In this document: positions 12,052 to 22,045 of the stretch, one piece after another
Layout of the letters: each line of letters starts with the position of its first letter
Position numbering within the stretch: the stretch's first letter is position 1
Source of the DNA: Antedon mediterranea
Taxonomy: Eukaryota > Echinodermata > Crinoidea > Comatulida > Antedonidae
Assembly (NCBI RefSeq): GCF_964355755.1
Contig: NC_092677.1
Span: forward strand, 19,004,101 to 19,068,100
DNA length: 64,000 nt
Reading direction: 5' to 3'
Program-made: the position numbers and the translations under genes
The notes under the pieces: generated by a model
Database searches by the model: none
What the model was told of the DNA's origin: nothing
Seen by the model: the letters and a program-made list of their open reading frames with translations, nothing else

Positions 12052-12395
12052 CTTTTTACTCGGGGGTACCCGAGTCTAGGACTTACTCATTTTCTCCTCC
12101 TCTTCCTCCATCTGGACACTATTGAGTAAAAAGTGCGATATTTAAAGTACTACTCCTCCCTTATTAGTTGTAGTATTGAGCTGGGATTTGGCATGAATAT
12201 ACTACAAGGACATGTCCTCAAATCTATAGAGCCGCCGGATTTTTAAATTTCAAACCGGATGCAGCCATATGACGTCTCGAAGATGGTACCATATAGCCGT
12301 ATTTGGTAGGTTATTGATGTGTATGTGACGTCACATCCCGTCTTATGACGTCATTACAGCTTCATTTGCTGTACCCCGAGTATCGCACACTCGTG
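12052..12395 (+). mobile_element. Helentron-like ~340-bp unit 1 (HINE)
   Basis: It starts CTTTTTACTCGGGGGTACC and ends GTACCCCGAGTA followed by the small hairpin GCAC-ACTC-GTGC, then runs straight into unit 2. A terminal inverted repeat paired with a subterminal 3' one and a 3' palindrome is the structure of non-autonomous Helentrons. The orientation shown assumes that reading. No ORF. Confidence 0.65.
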
Positions 12396-12735
12396 CTTTT
12401 TACTCGGGGTACCCGAGTCTAGGACTTACTCATTTTCTCCTCTTCCTCCATCTGGACACTATTGAGTAAAAAGTGCGATTTTTAAAGTACTACTCCTCCC
12501 TTATTAGTTGTAGTATTGAGCTGGGATTTGGCATGAATATACTACAGGGACATGTCCTCAAATCTATAGAGCCGCCGGATTTTTAAATTTCAAACCGGAT
12601 GCAGCCATATGACGTCTCGAAGATGGTACCATATAGCCGTATTTGGTAGGTTATTGATGTGTATGTGACGTCACATCCCGTCTTATGACGTCATTACAGC
12701 TTCATTTGCTGTACCCCGAGTATCGCACATTCGTG
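12396..12735 (+). mobile_element. Helentron-like ~340-bp unit 2
   Basis: Nearly identical to unit 1, with a few substitutions, a 3-base difference in the TCC/CTC run, and GCACATTCGTGC in the 3' hairpin. Head-to-tail with units 1 and 3. Confidence 0.7.
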
Positions 12736-15700
12736 CTTTTTACTCGGGGTACCCGAGTCTAGGACTTACTCATTTTCTCCTCCTCTTCCTCCATCTGGAC
12801 ACTATTGAGTAAAAAGTGCGATTTTTAAAGTACTACTCCTCCCTTATTAGTTGTAGTCCAGTCCCTAAGGGGAAATGATGTTACCATAGTGGATACAAGT
12901 GTGCCCTTTGGCATGTTGATAGAACATGATATGGAGATACCAAAACAAAGTTACTGGAAATCTGATTTGACCTCTGTGACCTCTGACCTCAATTTTTATA
13001 TTTCTATCTTAAACAGCCATATCTCCGCAACGGGTTTGACAATTGAAATGATATTGGTGTCAAATAGATCAGAGGGTACATATTTATATTCGCTCTAATA
13101 GAACTTTTTTCAAAAAAACGACTGGAAATGTAATTTCTCAATGTTTTGACCTTTGACCTCGGCTTACTATATCTCAATAACTACTGGTCAAAATTTCTTG
13201 AAATTTGTTTCAAATTGTTAAGAGCATACATATTTATATATACTCTAATTAAACATGTTCTTCCAAATCCACAGGAAATGTCATTTACTGACCTTTGACC
13301 TTTAATGTTTAAATATGTCTGTATCTCTGTAACAAAATGTCATAAACAGTTCAACTTGGTGTCAAAATGTTCAAAATGTAAACATTTATATTAGCTCTAA
13401 TAGAAGATGTTATCATATTTTTACTGGAAATGCCAGTTTGAGGTATGACCAGGATATACTGTTAAGCGTGCGTGTGTCATACTTATAATAATATACCTAA
13501 AATATAGATTTAATGGACCAGAACTACATTCAATATCCTATTTAGCCTTTTACAATTTTCTTAAAACTTAATGTTTAATTTAATTTCAATATATAATTCC
13601 ATCGCATGGTAGGTCTACACCGTAAGAGCAACACTTAATATCAACAAAAAATTAGATAAACTTAACATAACATTTAAAAAAAAAGAAAGAAAATCAGGAT
13701 CTTAAAGAAAGAAAAGAAGAATTAACACATGCGATTTGATACTCATAAAGCATATGACCTAATTATCAATTAATTGCTTGAAGTATGCTGAAAAAATAAA
13801 ATGTTTGAAACAGTGAGGAAAAAGCGAAGAAAAGAAAAACATATGTTTAAAATATTAGAAATCTGAAAAGGATCAAAGACAAATTAATTACAAAGCTGAT
13901 TTCTTTTCAAGAACATACTGTAGTGGAATATAAAAGGAAAACTTAAAGAAATTAAGAGAAGCAATGATAATTATACTTTAATCCACAAAAACATGACAAA
14001 ACTGACATCAACCATTACCGACCAAACGAACATTATCACATGTACACAAATAATTTACAAAAGTAATCAAAAAATAAAATCAGAGACCGACTAGAAGTAA
14101 ATAAACCAATATATAAGGCTTTATACAGGAGGACCATCTTATACAGTTTGTCAATCAACTAAAATAAAAAGGAAATGAATATCACCAAATCTTTGATTTA
14201 GAGATTATCAGAAAGCATTTGACTCAATAAAACAAGCATTACCATATTAGAGGGAAATATTATACCTCAACAAATATTGATTACGATCGTTTAAGAGAAG
14301 TTAAGGAAGATTAGTAAGACAAGGCGACATTTAAGATCTTCACTGCATTGGAAGAGGTGTTTAATCAAAGAGCTAATCTAAAAAATAGAGTAAATATCAC
14401 TTTAAAGACAAAATAAACAGTTAATTTAACCAAAATCACAGCCTATTTTTTGCTTTGAATTACAGTTTTTTTGGGTAATGCACTATATCATTTTTTTTTC
14501 AATCCAATTTTTGGTGAAACTATTATGTGTGACATTAAAATTGCATATTCAACAAAACTATTTGTCAAAATTATTTTTGTCAGGGGGAAAATAAGTATAT
14601 CTTTAATAGCATGTGATATTATTAGCAAATATTTCAAATGTAGTTTTAAAACTTTCCCATTACAAACAATTGCCATAATTCTGATAACATTACAATACAC
14701 CCATCCTCTGGGACTTATTTTCAAATGTAGCTAAAAACTTTCCAGTACAATTCCGGTCATTTTGATGTGTATAGATGCATGCAGTGGCATTGGAAAAGCG
14801 AGAGAGGGGGAGGTGGTTGGGGTGATGGAGAGACACATATATTTTACATGTTTGTCTACACTATAAACTAGTTTAACAAAAAAGGTGTGATGTGCCCAAA
14901 TATGGTAGTGATATGTCATTCATCGTGTCCATATATGGGCACATCACATTTTTTTGTCGCATAAAAATGTTATAATGTAGACAGAGTTTAACATTTGTGT
15001 AACATGTAACAAAAATATGTGTCTCTCCATCCACCCCAACCCTCTCCCCTCTCTCGATCTCTTTTTATAGATTATTAATTGCTAAATATATGCAAAACGA
15101 TGGGTCATAGCTCAAAATGACATTTCCAATTGAATTCTGACAAAATATTTTGTTAGAGCAAATATAAATGTGTATATTCTAAACAATTTGACACCAAACT
15201 GAACTTTTTAGGACAAATAGTTACCGAGATATTGACATATTCAAACATTAGAGGTCAAGGGTCAAAAAAGCTTAATTTATGGTAATTTTTTGAAAAAAGT
15301 TTCTATTAGACTAAATATTAGATTTATTTTCTTAACATTTTGAGCCCATTCTCAAATCTCTGAGATTGCCTGTTATTGAGATATTAGGCAATCAAGGTCA
15401 AAGGTCAAACTGAAAAATAAAGCTTTTGCGGCCATTTTTGTACAATTATTTTCATTATAGCGAATATAAATATATATCTTCCAAGCATTTTGAAAAAAAA
15501 ATAAATGTAAAATGTCCCTGCGTTGTCAAGATATGGCGATTTTTAGTTATATAATAGAAAAATATAAAAATTGAGGTCAGAGGTCACAGAGGTCAAATCA
15601 GATTTCCAGTAACTTTGTTTTGGCATCTCCACACTATACTCTACCAAACTGCTATACTGAAAAATTTGTATCCAGTCTGGTAACATCCCACCCCTTTTTC

Positions 15701-15945
15701 TCCCCTTAGGGACTGGACTATTGTAGTATTGAGCTGGGATTTGGCATGAATATACTACAGGGACATGTCCTCAAATCTATAGAGCCGGATTTTTAAATTT
15801 CAAACCGGATGCAGCCATATGACGTCTCGAAGATGGTACCATATAGCCGTATTTGGTAGGTTATTGATGTGTATGTGACGTCACATCCCGTCTTAAGACG
15901 TCATTACAGCTTCATTTGCTGTACCCCGAGTATCGCACATTCGTG
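12736..15945 (+). mobile_element. Helentron-like unit 3, split by a foldback transposon
   Basis: Unit sequence runs 12736-12853 and resumes at 15724-15945. The intact neighbours show the empty site TTAGTTGTAGTATTG, which proves a secondary insertion at 12854-15720. Confidence 0.85.
12854..15720. mobile_element. 2.87-kb long-TIR (foldback) transposon, TTG target duplication
   Basis: The ends are TAGTCCAGTCCCTAAGGGG and its exact complement. TTG is duplicated at 12851-12853 and 15721-15723. Arms of about 600 bp (to ~13447 and from ~15110) are themselves built of ~150-bp modules. Each module contains TGACCTTTGACCT-like, TATCTC-like, ACATATTTATAT and ACTGGAAATG motifs. A second, nested inverted repeat lies at about 14795-15055 (GGAGAGACACATAT / ATATGTGTCTCTCC). 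No transposase ORF was found; the superfamily is unclear. Confidence 0.8.
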
Positions 15946-16067
15946 CTTTTTACTCGGGGTACCCGAGTCTAGGACTTACTCATTTTCTCCTCCTCTTCCT
16001 CCATCTGGACACTATTGAGTCTAATAATAGACGCGGATATAAACAGAAGCATGAAACAGAGCGACTT

Positions 16068-17978
16068 ATGAATGAAAGCGATGAAAATCGTTCTAAGAGG
16101 CTAGGTAGATTCAAAAGTTATCACGAATCTCATCGAGATGATATCAGCGTTAAGAAGAAAAGTTATCACGAATCTCATCGAGATGATATCAGCGCTAAGA
16201 AGAAAAGTTATCACGAATCTCATCGAGATGATATCAACGCTAAGAAGAAAAGTCATTACGAATCTCATCGTCAAAAAAAAGAGAAGTGTGTGAAACGATA
16301 CACACATAAAAAACATAGTAACACCGAAAACGATCGATTGAGCAAATTTCCAGAACATTTACGTTATGGTCCAATATACCCATGCATAGTTTGTCATCGG
16401 ATGTTGTATAAAAATGGTGTAACGGAAATTACCGAAAAGTTACGAACAAAAATGAACACGAACAACGCATATGAACTATACGTCATCAAAGCAGAATTGC
16501 TCTCTACCGATAAAACAAAATACGTTTGTCATACATGTAAAGGTTACTTGGTGAAAGGTAAAATGTCACCTATGTGTGTGAGAAACGGCTTGAATCTTGA
16601 TCCTATTCCACCAGATCTAGAGCTGTCTGAACTTGGTAGAGTACTCGTAGCTAGATCTATTTTATTCCTAAAATTACGTGTTCTACCGTCTAGTGGATGG
16701 TCAGCAATGAAAGACCGGGTCATTTATGTACCTATAACTGATGATGATATATTGAATACTATGTCACAATTAAGGAGTTTACCACGACTGCCAGATGATG
16801 CTGGTTTGATTACAGTGAAACTCAAGCGACAGATAGAGAAACAGCCTTATATGTTAAATGCATATATTGATCCGAAGAAGCTAATACAAGCTATAATGAC
16901 ACTTAAAGAGCTGGGACATCCTGGGTACACTGATGTCAAGATCAACGAATTCTATCACGCACAAATCAAACAGGAGGTGGCTAATGATCCAGACGAAGAA
17001 GAAGATTCTCCCATAGTTGAAATAGTCAACGATGATGATGTAAATATCAAGACTAATGAGAATAATGATAGTAATGATAGAAGTGATACTAAAGAAACCA
17101 ATGAAAATGAAGAAGACGGAAGAACTCGTTATCAAAGCTGTAATAATCTTTCCACGGTGATGTCAGACGATCATGCAGAAATACATCTAGTTTGTCCGGA
17201 GAGAGAAAAGAATCGGTCTGATACAGATAGCCTTTCTGTCGCACCTGGACAAGGTAAAACACCTACTAATTTCATGAGAGATGAAAGTTGGGATATAAAT
17301 TCATTTCCAACATTGTATCCCACTGGTCGGTATGGTTTACACTACTTGCGTGCTATCAAATTGGCTCCTTGGAAGTTTTTCTGTCAAAGACTTTATAATG
17401 TAGACAGACGATTCATTTCTAGTGATGCATTCACTTTCGCTTCCTTATATTATCTCGAACGACACTCTATTGAAAGTCAAATCAGTGTCAGTTACTTGAA
17501 GGGAAATGTCAATTCATCGCGGGAATTGCAAAATGTGGAGGACGCGTTTTCTGTTCTTGACCAAATTCCAGGTTCACCTCGATATTGGAAAAAACAGCGA
17601 AATATAATGTTCGCACGACTAGAGAATCTTGGTCCGTTTCTTTTCTTTTTCACACTGTCCTGTGCTGATACACGATGGCCAGAAAACATCACGTCTATCC
17701 TTTCACGGAACCATGACATCAGTTACCAAATGGAAGATGGGATCGAAACTATATATGTTGATGGTGAACCACTAGAGTATACGGAAGAAGGAAGAATAAA
17801 AATAGACAACTTGAGCAATTTACTTCAAGAAAACACGGATATAGTGGCACGTAATTTCAACCAAAGAGTAAAGGCATTTATCAAAAACATAATGATGGGT
17901 ACAAACAGTCCTATGCATATTGAATCCTATAACTACAGGGTAGAGTTTCAAAAACGGGGTGCTGGACACATTCATTGA
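16068..17978 (+). pseudogene. Rep N-terminal block with zinc finger and HUH motif
   Basis: The 636-residue block starts with three 15-residue repeats (KSYHESHRDDISxKK, residues ~16-60) and a basic tail. Paired cysteines follow (C106xxC109, C154xxC157, C170), in the region found N-terminal to many Helitron Reps. Residues ~175-300 contain PPDLELSELGRVLVARSILF, which resembles the DUF6570-type domain of these proteins. An acidic low-complexity linker covers ~310-360. The Helitron-like N domain (SSDAFTFASLYYLERHSI) ends in FQKRGAGHIH, the HUH metal-binding motif. The TGA then interrupts a frame that continues VCWPTFEKLEEDF, so it is a point nonsense mutation. Confidence 0.85.
16113..16270 (+). 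repeat. 45-bp in-frame coding repeat, three copies plus a partial
   Basis: Units at 16113, 16158 and 16203 are nearly identical, with a decayed fourth at 16248. Each encodes a Lys/His/Asp-rich 15-mer. The high identity compared with the lesions downstream suggests recent slippage or homogenisation. Confidence 0.9.
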
Positions 17979-18083
17979 GTCTGTTGGCCAACTTTTGAGA
18001 AACTAGAAGAAGATTTTCCAGGAATTACATCATCTATTGATTCCCTGCGGCAGAACAAGCATCTCTCTGATAGTCAAAAAGAT

Positions 18084-18695
18084 GTGACAGTAAAGTTGGT
18101 AGATAATTTCATCACCTGTGATACAAAACCGGAAAACGATCTATATTATATTGCCAAACAACTGCAAACTCACAGTCACACTAAATCCTGTCGCAAGTAT
18201 GGAACAGATTGCAGATTCGGATTCCCACGTTTTCCTAGTGAAAGAACGATCATCGCACAGCCCTTGAACAAATCACAACTGACTGACGATGAATACAAAC
18301 AGATACTGGGCAATCATCACACTACACTGGAAGCAGTGAGGAAAACCTTGCTAGATCTGCAGAAAAAGAATAAATTAGACGAAACATCAATAGATCAACT
18401 ACTGCGATTAGCGGATGTTTCACACGAAGACTATTACAGAGCGCTCGAAGTTAGCGAGAAAGGCACAGTAATTGTACTGAAACGAGCGGTGAATGAAATA
18501 ATGGTCAACAATTACAACAAAGAATGGATACGAGCGTGGGATGGTAATATGGATCTACATGTCTGTTTGGACTATTATGCAGTGATCACTTATATTACCG
18601 ACTATTACATGAAGGATGATACCGGAACGATGAAATATCTCATAGATGCTGCCAAAGAAATGCGTGGGAGCGATAAAAGTAACCAAGAGAAATGA
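18084..18695 (+). pseudogene. Rep C-terminal block
   Basis: Same frame as the block before the TGA, so real coding begins at 17979 rather than at a new start. It contains QLQTHSHTKSCRK and CRFGFPRFP (cysteine-rich Helitron motif). The tyrosine motif VITYITDYYMKDD is the family's Rep motif 3, where paired Tyr residues attack DNA. It ends at a TGA overlapping the next block by ATGA. Frame loss here is judged a mutation, not translational coupling. Confidence 0.85.
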
Positions 18696-19714
18696 GATAC
18701 CTAGCAAGAGTATTCTTGACATACAGAGACAAAGGTAAATTTGAGGCCATTTACCTTATGGATCCTAGCCTTCATCTGACAAATTCCAACATAAAGCCTG
18801 TTTGGGTTGACACTAATCTTCCGGAGAAACGGAGGAAATTCCTCATGCAAATAGATGATGGTGATTACAGTGATGATGCAGATCCCGCAATGTCTGAGCC
18901 TGACGATGACGATGACGAGAATAATCGTACAATGAAAAAATCTAACAGAGCAAATAGTAATTTCATTACTATACCTGGCAAAAAAGGTAAATACGTTCAG
19001 CGAAACCTCTTGATACATGAGAAATTCGAGAAACGACCTGGTCCCATACGTATTATGACCATTGCTCAGTTCAGCACCATGTATGATACTTGTCCATTCA
19101 GTCAAACGAAAGGAAAAGTCTTTACAGACCAAGTACATGGTGTGAGTGATAAACCTATTGTTACTGCGGATGTGAGACCCACCGAATTCCTACCAGCATT
19201 GATCAAACTCACTGATACATTGTATATGAAACTACGTCAACGACCAGCTATATTACGTCAACATAAATGCAATCAGATAAAAGAACCACATCAGTTTGCC
19301 TACTCGGAGCTCTTACTTTACTGGCCGTGGCTGAAAGAAAGTGATTGCATAAGCGATGACTTCCAAAAGTGCTTAGACTTGTATGAGAGCAAACTAAACG
19401 AGATAAACATAGTGAAAAATATGCTATTCCCTCATCGTAACAATGTAGAAGCGGGTCGAAACTTCATCGAATCGCAGGATAATGGTCATCGTGCTAACCA
19501 TATTGGTGATATGCTGGATCCATCACTGGAACAGGAGAATGATGAACAGCGTGAGATTGGTACAAATGTCAACGTTCAGAACCTAGCAACTGAACCAGAG
19601 GGTATCGTCGATACAAATGACGAAGTAACCAGTGATCTTGGATCGATATTCAGGCGAATTGACATATCTGATAAAGAACAAATGTGTCAGTCAGTGCTTT
19701 CAATTGGGTACTGA
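18692..19714 (+). pseudogene. Helitron Rep-to-helicase linker block
   Basis: It encodes 340 residues beginning RYLARVFLTYRDKG and then SLHLTNSNI, standard Helitron sequence directly after Rep. FAYSELLLYWPW, the conserved aromatic linker motif, follows. An Asp-rich stretch (GDYSDDADPAMSEPDDDDDE) lies near residues 57-77. It runs out of frame at DKEQMC, where the helicase continues in another frame. Confidence 0.8.
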
Positions 19715-20529
19715 AATACTTGAGAGATATACGAAAATCTACTCAACTCGGGACCAGGGTAAAAGATCCACCACTTTTGGTAGTTCATGGAGGTGCAGGT
19801 TCGGGAAAATCAGAGTTGATACGTGTAATAGCACAGTGGGCAGAAGCCACACTGAGAACAGACGATGACAGAAATCCCGATCAACCACTTGTGATCCTTG
19901 CTGCTCCAACAGGAACTGCAGCCAGTAACATCAAAGGTCTGACTATGCATACAGCGTTCAATCTGCCCTTTGGAAACAAATTTATCAGTTTGAGTGATAA
20001 AAAGCGAGATGCAATGAGATCGCTGTTACAAGGGTTGAAGTTAGTCGTGATAGATGAAATGTCAATGGTAAAAGCAGACCAGTTGTATCAGTTGAATCTA
20101 CGACTTCAAGAGATATTGGGAAATCAGCGAGACTTTGCTGGAATTTCTATTGTCCTGTTCGGTGATCTACTTCAGCTCCGACCCGTATCAGCAAGATATA
20201 TTTTCGATGAGCCATCAAACGAGAATTTCGCTCTTTCTTTCACACTCCGTTCCTTATGGGATCTCTTTACTATGATAGAGTTACGTTATAACCATCGTCA
20301 AGGCGATCATCGCGAATACGCAGAAGTTCTAGGACGTATCCGATATGGCCTGAAAGAACAGCCTGATATCGATTTCCTGAAAAAGAGAGTTACTAAAGAT
20401 ATCCCCATAGATGGGATACATTTGTTTGGAACTAACGCAGAAGTGAACCATTTCAATGATGAGAGACTGAGCGATCTAGAAGGTACTGAATATACGATAC
20501 ATACTAAAAATCGGCTTGTCAAATTTTGA
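19684..20529 (+). pseudogene. Pif1-like helicase block, C-terminally truncated
   Basis: The 281-residue SF1B helicase core begins AFNWVLKYLRD. Walker A is GGAGSGKS (36-43), motif Ia AAPTGTAA (73-80), Walker B VVIDEMSM (121-128) and motif III FGDLLQLRPV (159-168), followed by ELRYNHRQGDHREYAEVLGRI. Motifs V and VI are absent. The block stops a few residues after SDLEGTEYTIHTKN, so the ATPase fold is incomplete. The first codon here is GTG within a continuing frame, not a true start. Confidence 0.9.
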
Positions 20530-20700
20530 ACTCATCTGTGTTTATAGGTCTCCAAATAGTCCGATCACAGAATTTACAGAGGCACTTTTACGTTGTATAT
20601 CAAACAACAAGAAAACCGTGATCTGCGGCGATATAAACACCGATCCTACAGGAAACAAATTATTTGAAAGTTTGACAAATCTTGGCGTATTTGGTAGGTT
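20519..20700 (+). pseudogene. APE-type endonuclease fragment
   Basis: A frame different from the helicase reads FELICVYRSPNSPITEF, then KKTVICGDINTD and FESLTNLGV. The VYRxPN and GD(I/F)N motifs mark the endonuclease/exonuclease/phosphatase fold of non-LTR retrotransposons, which is also fused to Helentron helicases. It is truncated at both ends: it abuts the helicase directly and runs into 340-bp-unit sequence at 20686. A LINE fragment is the alternative reading. Confidence 0.7.
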
Positions 20701-20824
20701 ATTGATGTGTATGTGACGTCACATCCCGTCTTATGACGTCATTACAGCTTCATTTTTTAATTAATTTGTTTAATTAAGAAGCCACAATGAGTGACACACA
20801 CCACAGCGTTATGTAGTTATATGC

Positions 20825-20896
20825 GGCTTCTTGGCGTAGTGGTTATCACGTCTGTTTAACACGCAGAAGGTCCCCGGTTCGAGCCCGGGCGAAACC
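20825..20896 (+). tRNA. tRNA-Val(AAC)-like gene or tRNA-derived SINE head
   Basis: A 72-base cloverleaf can be drawn with anticodon loop TTAACAC (AAC, Val) and a perfect T arm CCGGG/CCCGG. The A box TGGCGTAGTGG and B box GGTTCGAGCCC both fit the Pol III consensus. A T10 run directly after the 3' end could terminate transcription. The acceptor stem has two mismatches (C-A and T-C), so it may be a pseudogene. Confidence 0.6.
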
Positions 20897-20906
20897 TTTT
20901 TTTTTT

Positions 20907-20959
20907 AACTTTATGGTGAAAAGTACTGTATACGCAATATGATATACAGTATATCTTAT
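20907..20959 (+). repeat. Shared tail after first tRNA-like sequence
   Basis: AACTTTATGGTGAAAAGTAC and the following ACGCAATATGATA recur at 21195-21245 after the second tRNA-like sequence. This indicates a tRNA-plus-tail unit: a SINE-like element or a local duplication. Confidence 0.75.
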
Positions 20960-21109
20960 TTTTATTATTTTTTTAAATATTTATTTTGTGTAATCGGTAA
21001 TTATCACTTTTACACATGTTTATCTTGCTTTGTGCTTATTACCATAATAATTTATTTGTAATTTAAATGGATTAAAAAACTTTGTGTAACCCACATTTTT
21101 GGTGTAAGA

Positions 21110-21184
21110 GGTTTCGTAGTGTAGTGGTTATCAAGTCCGCTTAACGCGCAGAAGGTCCCCGGTTCGAGCCCTCATGGCGAGACC
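21110..21184 (+). pseudogene. tRNA-Val(AAC)-like pseudogene
   Basis: The acceptor stem GGTTTCG/CGAGACC pairs fully (with one G-U) and the anticodon loop is TTAACGC. The A and B boxes are intact. The T arm is broken by extra bases (GAGCCCTCATGG) and the anticodon stem has a mismatch. It shares about 50 bases of downstream sequence with the copy at 20825. Confidence 0.65.
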
Positions 21185-21250
21185 ATTTTGCTTAAACTTT
21201 ATGGTGAAATATACTGTATACGTAATATGATATAGAGTATATATATCTCG

Positions 21251-21601
21251 TTTTATTACTCGGGGTACCTGAGTCTAGGACTCTCTAATCTTTTCCTCTT
21301 CTTCTTCCATCTGGACACTATTGAGCAAAAAGTTCGATTTATAAAGTACTACTCCTCCCTTATTCGTGGTAGTATTGAGCTCAGATTTAGCATGAATATA
21401 CTACAGGGACATGTCCTCAAAGCTAGCTATAGAGCCGGATTTTAAAATTTCAAACCGGATGCAGCCATATCACGTCTCGAAGATGGTACCGTATAGCCGT
21501 ATTTGGTAGCGCGGTTATCGATGTGTATGTGACGTTACATCCGGTCTTATGACGTCATTACAGCTTCTTTCGCTGTACCCCGAGTATTGCACATTCGTGC
21601 T
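21251..21601 (+). mobile_element. Diverged Helentron-like unit 5
   Basis: A full-length but older copy of the 340-bp unit, with TACTCGGGGTAC at the left, GTACCCCGAGTA at the right and the GCACATTCGTGC hairpin. It differs at many more positions than units 1-3. Confidence 0.8.
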
Positions 21602-21852
21602 TGTTATTTTTGACCAGTGAAAAATTTGGTCAAAAACGGTCATTTTTGGCAAAAGTTGTCCATTAAAGTGAATAGAAATATGTATCTTCTCAGTATTTTT
21701 ACACCAACTACAACCATATCCACCCAACAATTTCTGAGATATGAAAAGTGTGCTCTAAGCCACCAAAAAAAATCGTGTCGGCTATAATGTCAAAGGTAAA
21801 AATTAGGGTTTATTCACAATTTTGTGATTTTTATTTGAAACCACGTTTATCT

Positions 21853-22045
21853 TAGGTTTAAATAGAGATATCTTATTTTTTTTAATAGAGATATCTTAGT
21901 TTTAGATAGAGATATCTCTTTTAATAGACTATACCTATACTTAATAGAGATATCTCTATTAATAGAGATATCTCTATTTAAAACTAAGATATCCCTATTT
22001 AAAACAAGATATCTCTATTCAAAACTACGATATCTCTATTGCTTG
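21853..22045. repeat. Cluster of GAGATATCTC palindromes in a large inverted repeat
   Basis: About nine copies of (A)TAGAGATATCT(C/T)A in two opposed arms. The centre has two perfect AATAGAGATATCTCTATT palindromes back to back. The whole could fold into a long stem. The only function suggested is secondary structure. Confidence 0.85.

Follow-up and report, generated by a model that had tools for sequence, protein, structure and literature searches.

The window analyzed here, a 64,000-nucleotide stretch of the genome of the crinoid Antedon mediterranea (contig NC_092677.1, positions 19,004,101 to 19,068,100), harbors a nest of repeats that extends from a left end at 12053 to a right end (GTGCTTG) at 21603, with all its features on the plus strand. 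The nest opens with copies of a unit, U, of approximately 340 bp, which includes both end signals and corresponds to a short non-autonomous Helentron (HINE). Copy 1 (12053..12396) starts with the left end TTTTTACTCGG after a unique flank, copy 2 (12397..12736) follows it head to tail across a GTGC-TTTTT-ACTC junction in which the terminal G is missing, and copy 3 is split by an unrelated 2.87-kb insertion (approximately 12854 to 15720, its extent judged by eye) into a 5' part (12737..12853) and the 3' part that completes it (15721..15945). Bases 1-76 of a fourth copy (15946..16020) are fused to the middle of a decayed Helentron coding block (16021..20685) with a Rep domain bearing an in-frame stop after GAGHIH, a PIF1 helicase, and an endonuclease stub. 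To the right of this block lie unit bases 247-316 without the 3' hairpin end (20686..20756), a spacer s (20757..20824), a tRNA-Val(AAC) gene (20825..20897; Rfam 39.3 bits), a spacer f (20898..21104), a degenerate second tRNA-Val with neither an ARAGORN call nor a match at the Rfam cut-off (21110..21185), a short spacer, and a complete terminal unit of a 3' lineage, U' (21253..21603), which is 88.5% identical to the unit and ends in GTGCTTG before unique flank. Spacer s also precedes tRNA genes in a host tRNA-Val cluster, the apparent source of spacer f and both genes as well.

The initial annotation of this region had described tandem units of about 340 bp at 12052, 12396, and 12736, a diverged copy at 21251, and pieces of the unit beside a Rep-helicase block, all of which we recovered, with 15946-16020 corresponding to unit bases 1-76 and 20686-20755 to bases 247-316. 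Its 5' end motif, its subterminal 3' motif GTACCCCGAGTA, and its tip palindrome GCACATTCGTGC are as described, and the Rep-helicase copy is indeed decayed and set among units. Its assignment of 20686-20755 to the 3' end of that copy did not hold, as this sequence continues into spacer and tRNA sequence and aligns to the 5' side (leading unit, spacer, tRNA) of a coding copy on contig C7, which indicates a second, composite element, with U and U' at either side of a tRNA cargo that the annotation had not mentioned. The nest very probably amounts to three units in tandem, a fourth one that a deletion has fused to a broken coding block, and what is left of a composite. Deletions joining the unit to the coding block, and the coding block to the adjacent composite remnant, are the simplest account, and there is a single-base overlap at each of these two joins.

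DNA of the coding block was found in five sizeable places of the genome, namely the window and copies on C7, C6, C4, and C2. The four other copies exhibit the order unit, spacer, tRNA sequence, OTU-Rep-helicase-endonuclease (with gaps and insertions), and unit-like right end, so that their 5' side is the same tRNA-bearing one as in the composites. The Pfam domain run, which covered the window and the C7 copy (L001), revealed OTU, Helitron_like_N, PIF1, and Exo_endo_phos in the latter. The Rep domain (PF14214, Helitron_like_N) scored 79.8 bits in L001 and 75.0 bits in the window against a cut-off of 28.9, and a single 777-aa frame of L001 holds both PIF1 (117-297) and Exo_endo_phos (586-768). 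The endonuclease fragment previously proposed to follow the helicase is present in the window as a stub, but at 23.4 bits it falls under the Pfam cut-off of 27.4; the endonuclease-bearing part is mostly deleted from this copy, and also absent are the OTU part and, near 20502, about 0.9 kb of sequence present in C7 (the corresponding extra sequence in C4 is 0.6 kb). The Rep frame of the window terminates at a point where that of L001 continues, a position that we take to be the HUH motif. All four other coding copies end in GCACATTCGTGC-TTG, then TT, then differing flanks, and in three of them (C7, C6, and C4) the similarity sets in at the left end of a complete U, an end of which C7 has a short duplication. 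Two side observations concern this block: a 45-bp in-frame tandem repeat precedes the Rep domain at 16113-16270 of the window, with more copies in L001, and a minisatellite-like array at C1:1068566-1076507 resembles a short low-complexity stretch of the block. Helitron_like_N itself had 87 matches in the genome, 41 of them within open frames of at least 2,500 aa, mostly near 3,100 aa (e.g., C8:893169-893765 and C1:14160828-14161424), which represent another, apparently younger Helitron-type family.

Throughout the 354 Mb and 18 contigs of the genome searched, the left-end pattern TTTTACTCGGGGTACC produced 593 matches at up to one mismatch, against six for the reversed control, so the abundance of the unit is not due to chance, and matches to the family are spread over C1 to C11. 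The family has subterminal inverted repeats at both ends and a palindrome at its 3' end (ACTCGGGGTACCCGAGT, TACCCCGAGTA, and GCACATTCGTGC); the folding of the 5' palindrome exceeds that of shuffled sequences (z -3.2), and that of the 4-bp 3' stem was unremarkable against shuffles (z -1.2). From the 593 matches, 100 were listed (exact matches on C1 to C3), from which two sets of 20 were picked by hand with their content unseen. In these 40 places, exact ends were followed by differing flanks, and an extra T stood ahead of the left-end TTTT in 20/20 places of the first set and 18/20 of the second. Comparing the joined flanks of 39 copies with the fetched sequence, we inspected the spanning matches for L018, L074, and L087, setting L038 and L080 aside as weak (73-74% identity). 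Among the matches listed, the paralogous empty sites of L074 and L087 show a T run, no duplication, and no G at the join, and a weaker empty site for L018 also shows a T run without duplication. Insertion hence takes place within TT without target duplication, as the initial annotation had expected from the T|T sites, and since the joined empty sites have no G, the terminal G of CTTG is most likely part of the element. Domains, ends, and insertion sites together correspond to the Helentron-type arrangement that had been proposed, and we consider it highly probable that these repeats form a family of Helentrons, rolling-circle transposons that combine Rep, a PIF1 helicase, and an endonuclease.

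A satellite dispersed by segmental duplication would account for the 43 head-to-tail unit-unit junctions, for copies clustered at C1:28.43-28.50 Mb, and for loci with common flanks (L031-L033 and L038-L040). This reading is contradicted by the 593 left-end matches in places on C1 to C11, by the differing flanks at exact ends, and by the empty sites, and we regard it as extremely improbable. With 43 junctions against 593 left ends, the unit is not mostly tandem as satellite DNA would be. Solo units make up 11 of the 40 sampled places, and the short units are not mainly the deletion derivatives amplified in tandem that had been proposed earlier: the unit is a mobile short element in its own right.

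A manual tally of the 40 sampled places from their annotations distinguished several forms of the element. Besides the solo units (L073, L080, L083, L087, L100, L101, L102, L106, L107, L115, and L117) and seven expanded unit variants (L078, L086, L088, L098, L105, L109, and L111), a tRNA-Val(AAC)-bearing segment occurred in 22 places: five composites, two of them decayed (L072, L075, L076, L085, and L104), two intermediates (L099 and L116), a nested pair (L082), and 14 copies of a streamlined form, several slightly altered (L074, L077, L079, L081, L084, L089, L090, L091, L103, L108, L110, L112, L113, and L114). The full layout of unit, spacer, tRNA-Val, spacer, tRNA-Val, spacer, and U' was observed in 17 of 20 places extended downstream, some with an insertion or a missing piece, and the last unit was only partial in L017, L028, and L030; these 20 were taken from the 38 best matches to the window unit, a set that is biased for this reason. 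The streamlined form, the commonest tRNA-bearing one in the sample, measures 0.7 kb and has a single left end and a single right end, with unit bases 3-199 on the left and 304-344, of U' type, on the right.

The segment enclosed in the composite comprises about 500 bp of host sequence, i.e., spacer, tRNA-Val, spacer, tRNA-Val, and spacer. In 63 oriented sequences, ARAGORN detected a total of 63 tRNA genes, of which 60 are tRNA-Val(AAC); 20 of the sequences had none. Genome-wide, the tRNA core pattern had 410 matches at up to two mismatches (control 0), of which 103 fall inside a dense block at C10:15.238-15.281 Mb; the spacer had 351 matches (control 0), 12 of them in this cluster by plus-strand count, and unit-spacer junctions numbered 131 at up to two mismatches (control 0). 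The 46.5-kb cluster region (C10:15236000-15282500, L092-L097) contains 114 predicted tRNA-Val genes in repeating blocks, 47 with the anticodon AAC, 40 with CAC, and 27 with TAC, and within it there was no match to the unit, the coding block, or the four end motifs. The best cluster place aligned to the element segment with 86.4% identity over 470 columns, covering the first spacer and both genes, and at least 19 further places reached 83.5-88.5% over 382-406 columns, covering the two genes and the intervening spacer. The mixed anticodons and the absence of element ends from the cluster suggest that capture proceeded from host cluster to element, which appears to have picked up a tRNA-Val pair there and to have dispersed copies of it.

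The cargo genes themselves would be decaying passengers that have lost their tRNA function. At the Rfam cut-off, host genes in L093 scored 46.0-65.2 bits, compared with 47.4 bits in L077 and 39.3 bits in the window (one of the two genes in each) and 47.4 and 33.1 bits in L072. Across 16 composites, the tRNA genes vary by 3.3% and 2.4%, the long spacers by 3.4% and 3.7%, the short spacer by 0.9%, and the units by 1.8% and 2.2%. Selection on the element's tRNA genes is unsupported by these figures, as their variation is about that of the long spacers and above that of the units; the sole figure in its favor is the absence of any change from the second gene (504 bases compared in seven streamlined copies), where the overall variation is 0.7% and that of the first gene 1.4%.

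Phylogenetic analysis of the units bears on how the composite moves. In a tree of 74 units, all 19 terminal U' fell on one side of a branch with support 93/92, joined only by two units of the L011 array, and all 27 5' U fell across it. In the 18 elements with both units, the mean divergence of U from U' is 9.4% (range 7.2 to 11.9%), the same value as between elements, whereas distances within a position are 4.0% for U and 4.2% for U'; U distances also correlate with U' distances (r 0.47, with 15 of 2000 permutations as high). A same-element distance equal to that between elements, together with the grouping by position, indicates that the composite has been copied as one piece past its inner right end. 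Replication would thus start at the left end of U, read through the right end of U, and stop at the right end of U', plausibly by the rolling-circle mode.

These figures also bear on whether the two units could be terminal direct repeats regenerated from one template in each round, either as in a long terminal repeat (LTR) element or by replication continuing beyond the first turn of a circle, the solo units being recombination products like solo LTRs. The unit-internal-unit layout and the L011 array resemble such repeats, and one solo unit (L012) combines a U-type start with a U'-type 3' end. Regeneration is nonetheless contradicted for the composites tested, in which U and U' are no closer within one element than across elements, and ten sampled solos fall outside the 5' U group, in which the best-match solos L010 and L012 are found; we therefore deem it very improbable. 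Both LTR-like regeneration of the two units and a circular form comprising one unit plus one internal segment were dropped on the tree grouping and the U/U' distance.

Concerning the origin of the composite, both of its joins lie where an element end resembles host sequence, which fits template switching: replication, on departing from U at its right tip, would have switched to a host spacer with TTCGTGCTT in common, proceeded through both tRNA genes, and come back to a left end at TTACT. The left join has TTCGTGCTTTTTTG in the composite, against TTCGTGCTTTTTTA in one cluster copy and TTCGTGCTTG at the end of a solo unit; the cluster copy at C10:15254993 reads TTCGTGCTTTTTT, with 13 bases common with the composite, nine of them also with the unit tip. 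At the right join U' starts with TTTTATTACTCGG, the host spacer has TTTTATTACTTTT, and the usual left end is TTTTTACTCGG, the host f spacer reading TTTTATTACT, the same as the U' start. The closest cluster copy was chosen afterwards, however, and the other copies listed read TTTGTG. Moreover, if U and U' are different lineages, two insertions would be favored, in which separate insertions of U and U' flanked the tRNA pair of the cluster and transposition from the first ran on to the end of the second. A second tree of 60 units (without L076, L102, and the tandem and array units, its bootstrap not settled) agrees with this second route in placing solo units on both the U and U' sides of a branch with support 82/88, and CTTGTTTGTTAATT, as expected for insertion into a T run, stands at 14 of the 100 listed unit-spacer junctions (131 in all). 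Against it, the start of U' tracks host sequence and not a clean TTTT end, and an approximately unbiased (AU) test does not separate the cases (p 0.147). We hold the two routes to be equally likely, each at slightly under an even chance.

The absence of the terminal G from a right end may contribute to read-through. A regular expression found G, T, and A at 44, 5, and 1 terminal tails and at 2, 33, and 1 internal ones; after four ends (L041, L023, L085, and C6) were reassigned by hand from terminal to internal, since spacer sequence follows them, the G is present in 44 of 46 terminal right ends of the fetched copies and missing from 38 of 40 inner ones. The second sample has it in 16 of 17 terminal ends (L108 has T), with no match for L098, L099, and L117. 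It is conceivable, though rather unlikely, that a right end with the terminal G stops the Helentron and one without it is read through, so that the unit acts as a capture device that seized the tRNA pair via a chance likeness between its 3' tip and the spacer, and whose descendants shed their inner ends. In wider lists that tolerate few mismatches, the G occurs at 1 of 43 unit-unit junctions and at the same 14 of 100 listed unit-spacer junctions noted above, and the latter figure lowered our estimate for this proposal from one that was already small. The inner right ends, moreover, share ancestry, so that the absence of G among them counts as few independent events. A plain G-to-T change at the inner right ends was dropped as an explanation, since, judging from the host sequence there, the T may have been introduced by the join.

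Taken together, the joint explanation that we favor with high confidence is that a segment of the host tRNA-Val cluster became enclosed between U and U', that the composite then moved whole within a Helentron family, and that the inner right end and subsequently the inner left end would have disappeared from later copies, leaving the 0.7-kb carrier, with the window preserving a nest of such elements. The intermediates are the forms to be expected in this order, L116 having the streamlined left part with a complete U' on the right, and L099 being similar. Divergence from the majority sequence, 0.7% in seven streamlined copies vs. 2.4% in 16 composites, indicates that the streamlined form probably spread later. 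Several points weigh on the other side. Transposition itself was not observed, and no rooted tree orders the composite and the streamlined form, whose derivation from the composite is a matter of inference. The AU test did not reject a tree uniting U and U' apart from the other solos. The cluster is organized in repeating blocks, so that the true donor copy is probably lost. Copies joining the unit ends to Rep, helicase, and endonuclease, for which the initial annotation had advised a search, do exist, but none of the three examined (window, L001, and L002) has a frame unbroken across all domains; its expectation that autonomous copies share their termini with the unit agrees with the right ends of all four other coding copies and the left ends of three, but not with the left side of the C2 copy, which lacks unit bases 1-72 and hence the left end.

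The family type is known. Helentrons and HINE/DINE-1 elements (PMC4067079) share with the present family the Rep-helicase-endonuclease set, palindromic subterminal inverted repeats near the 5' end, a 3' subterminal repeat before a short palindrome, TT insertion, an optional OTU domain, and many short derivatives, and missed ends are suggested there as a route of capture. Unlike those elements, the short unit here flanks the full element and the composite as direct repeats, the cargo is a tRNA gene pair, and the 3' distances are shorter than the values given for mite families. The Cg_HINE elements of the Pacific oyster (PMC7492417) are similarly short Helentron derivatives at T-rich sites with joined-flank empty sites; they differ in a satellite-like center, in having no autonomous partner to which they could be related, and in that the word 'tRNA' is absent from the main text. 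FoHeli (Helitron2) of Fusarium oxysporum (PMC5148889) also has asymmetric terminal inverted repeats, with tandem copies and end-bypass discussed in its description, but it has no endonuclease, its joined ends are evidenced by polymerase chain reaction, and the passages seen mention no RNA gene cargo. In a tRNA-Cys cluster of Arabidopsis annotated as Helitron (PMC10701932), too, tRNA genes lie in Helitron-tied repeats, and a captured non-coding RNA would, according to that paper, be a first example; there, however, the stretch with the tRNA genes received no reliable prediction from Helitron tools and the repeats form a local cluster, in contrast to the ends, empty sites, and several hundred dispersed copies of the present family. 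Among the titles and abstract openings listed, in a literature mostly without subscription journals, we found no report of tRNA-gene capture by a Helitron or Helentron, and in the searchable papers RNA-gene capture by such elements figures only as a conjecture. Within that literature, no precedent was seen for the tRNA cargo or for the preserved series, and this is, as far as the papers show, the first well-bounded case of RNA genes as cargo.

Two further features of the window are recorded for completeness. The insertion at 12854-15720, with the ends TAGTCCAGTCCCTAAGGGG and CCCCTTAGGGACTGGACTA, has long inverted repeats in its interior and, as judged by eye, a 3-bp duplication of TTG; it looks like a non-autonomous cut-and-paste element. 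Just to the right of the nest, 21848-22040 hold an inverted-repeat string based on AATAGAGATATCTCTATT.

How rolling-circle transposons pick up host genes is debated, with missed ends, neighboring insertions, and template switching all proposed. In the A. mediterranea genome, the likely donor, the composite, the intermediates, and the streamlined form are all present, which allows the order of events to be dated and the individual bases of the end signals to be compared. The family also explains approximately 300 dispersed tRNA-Val-like copies outside the cluster, which would confuse tRNA gene counts.

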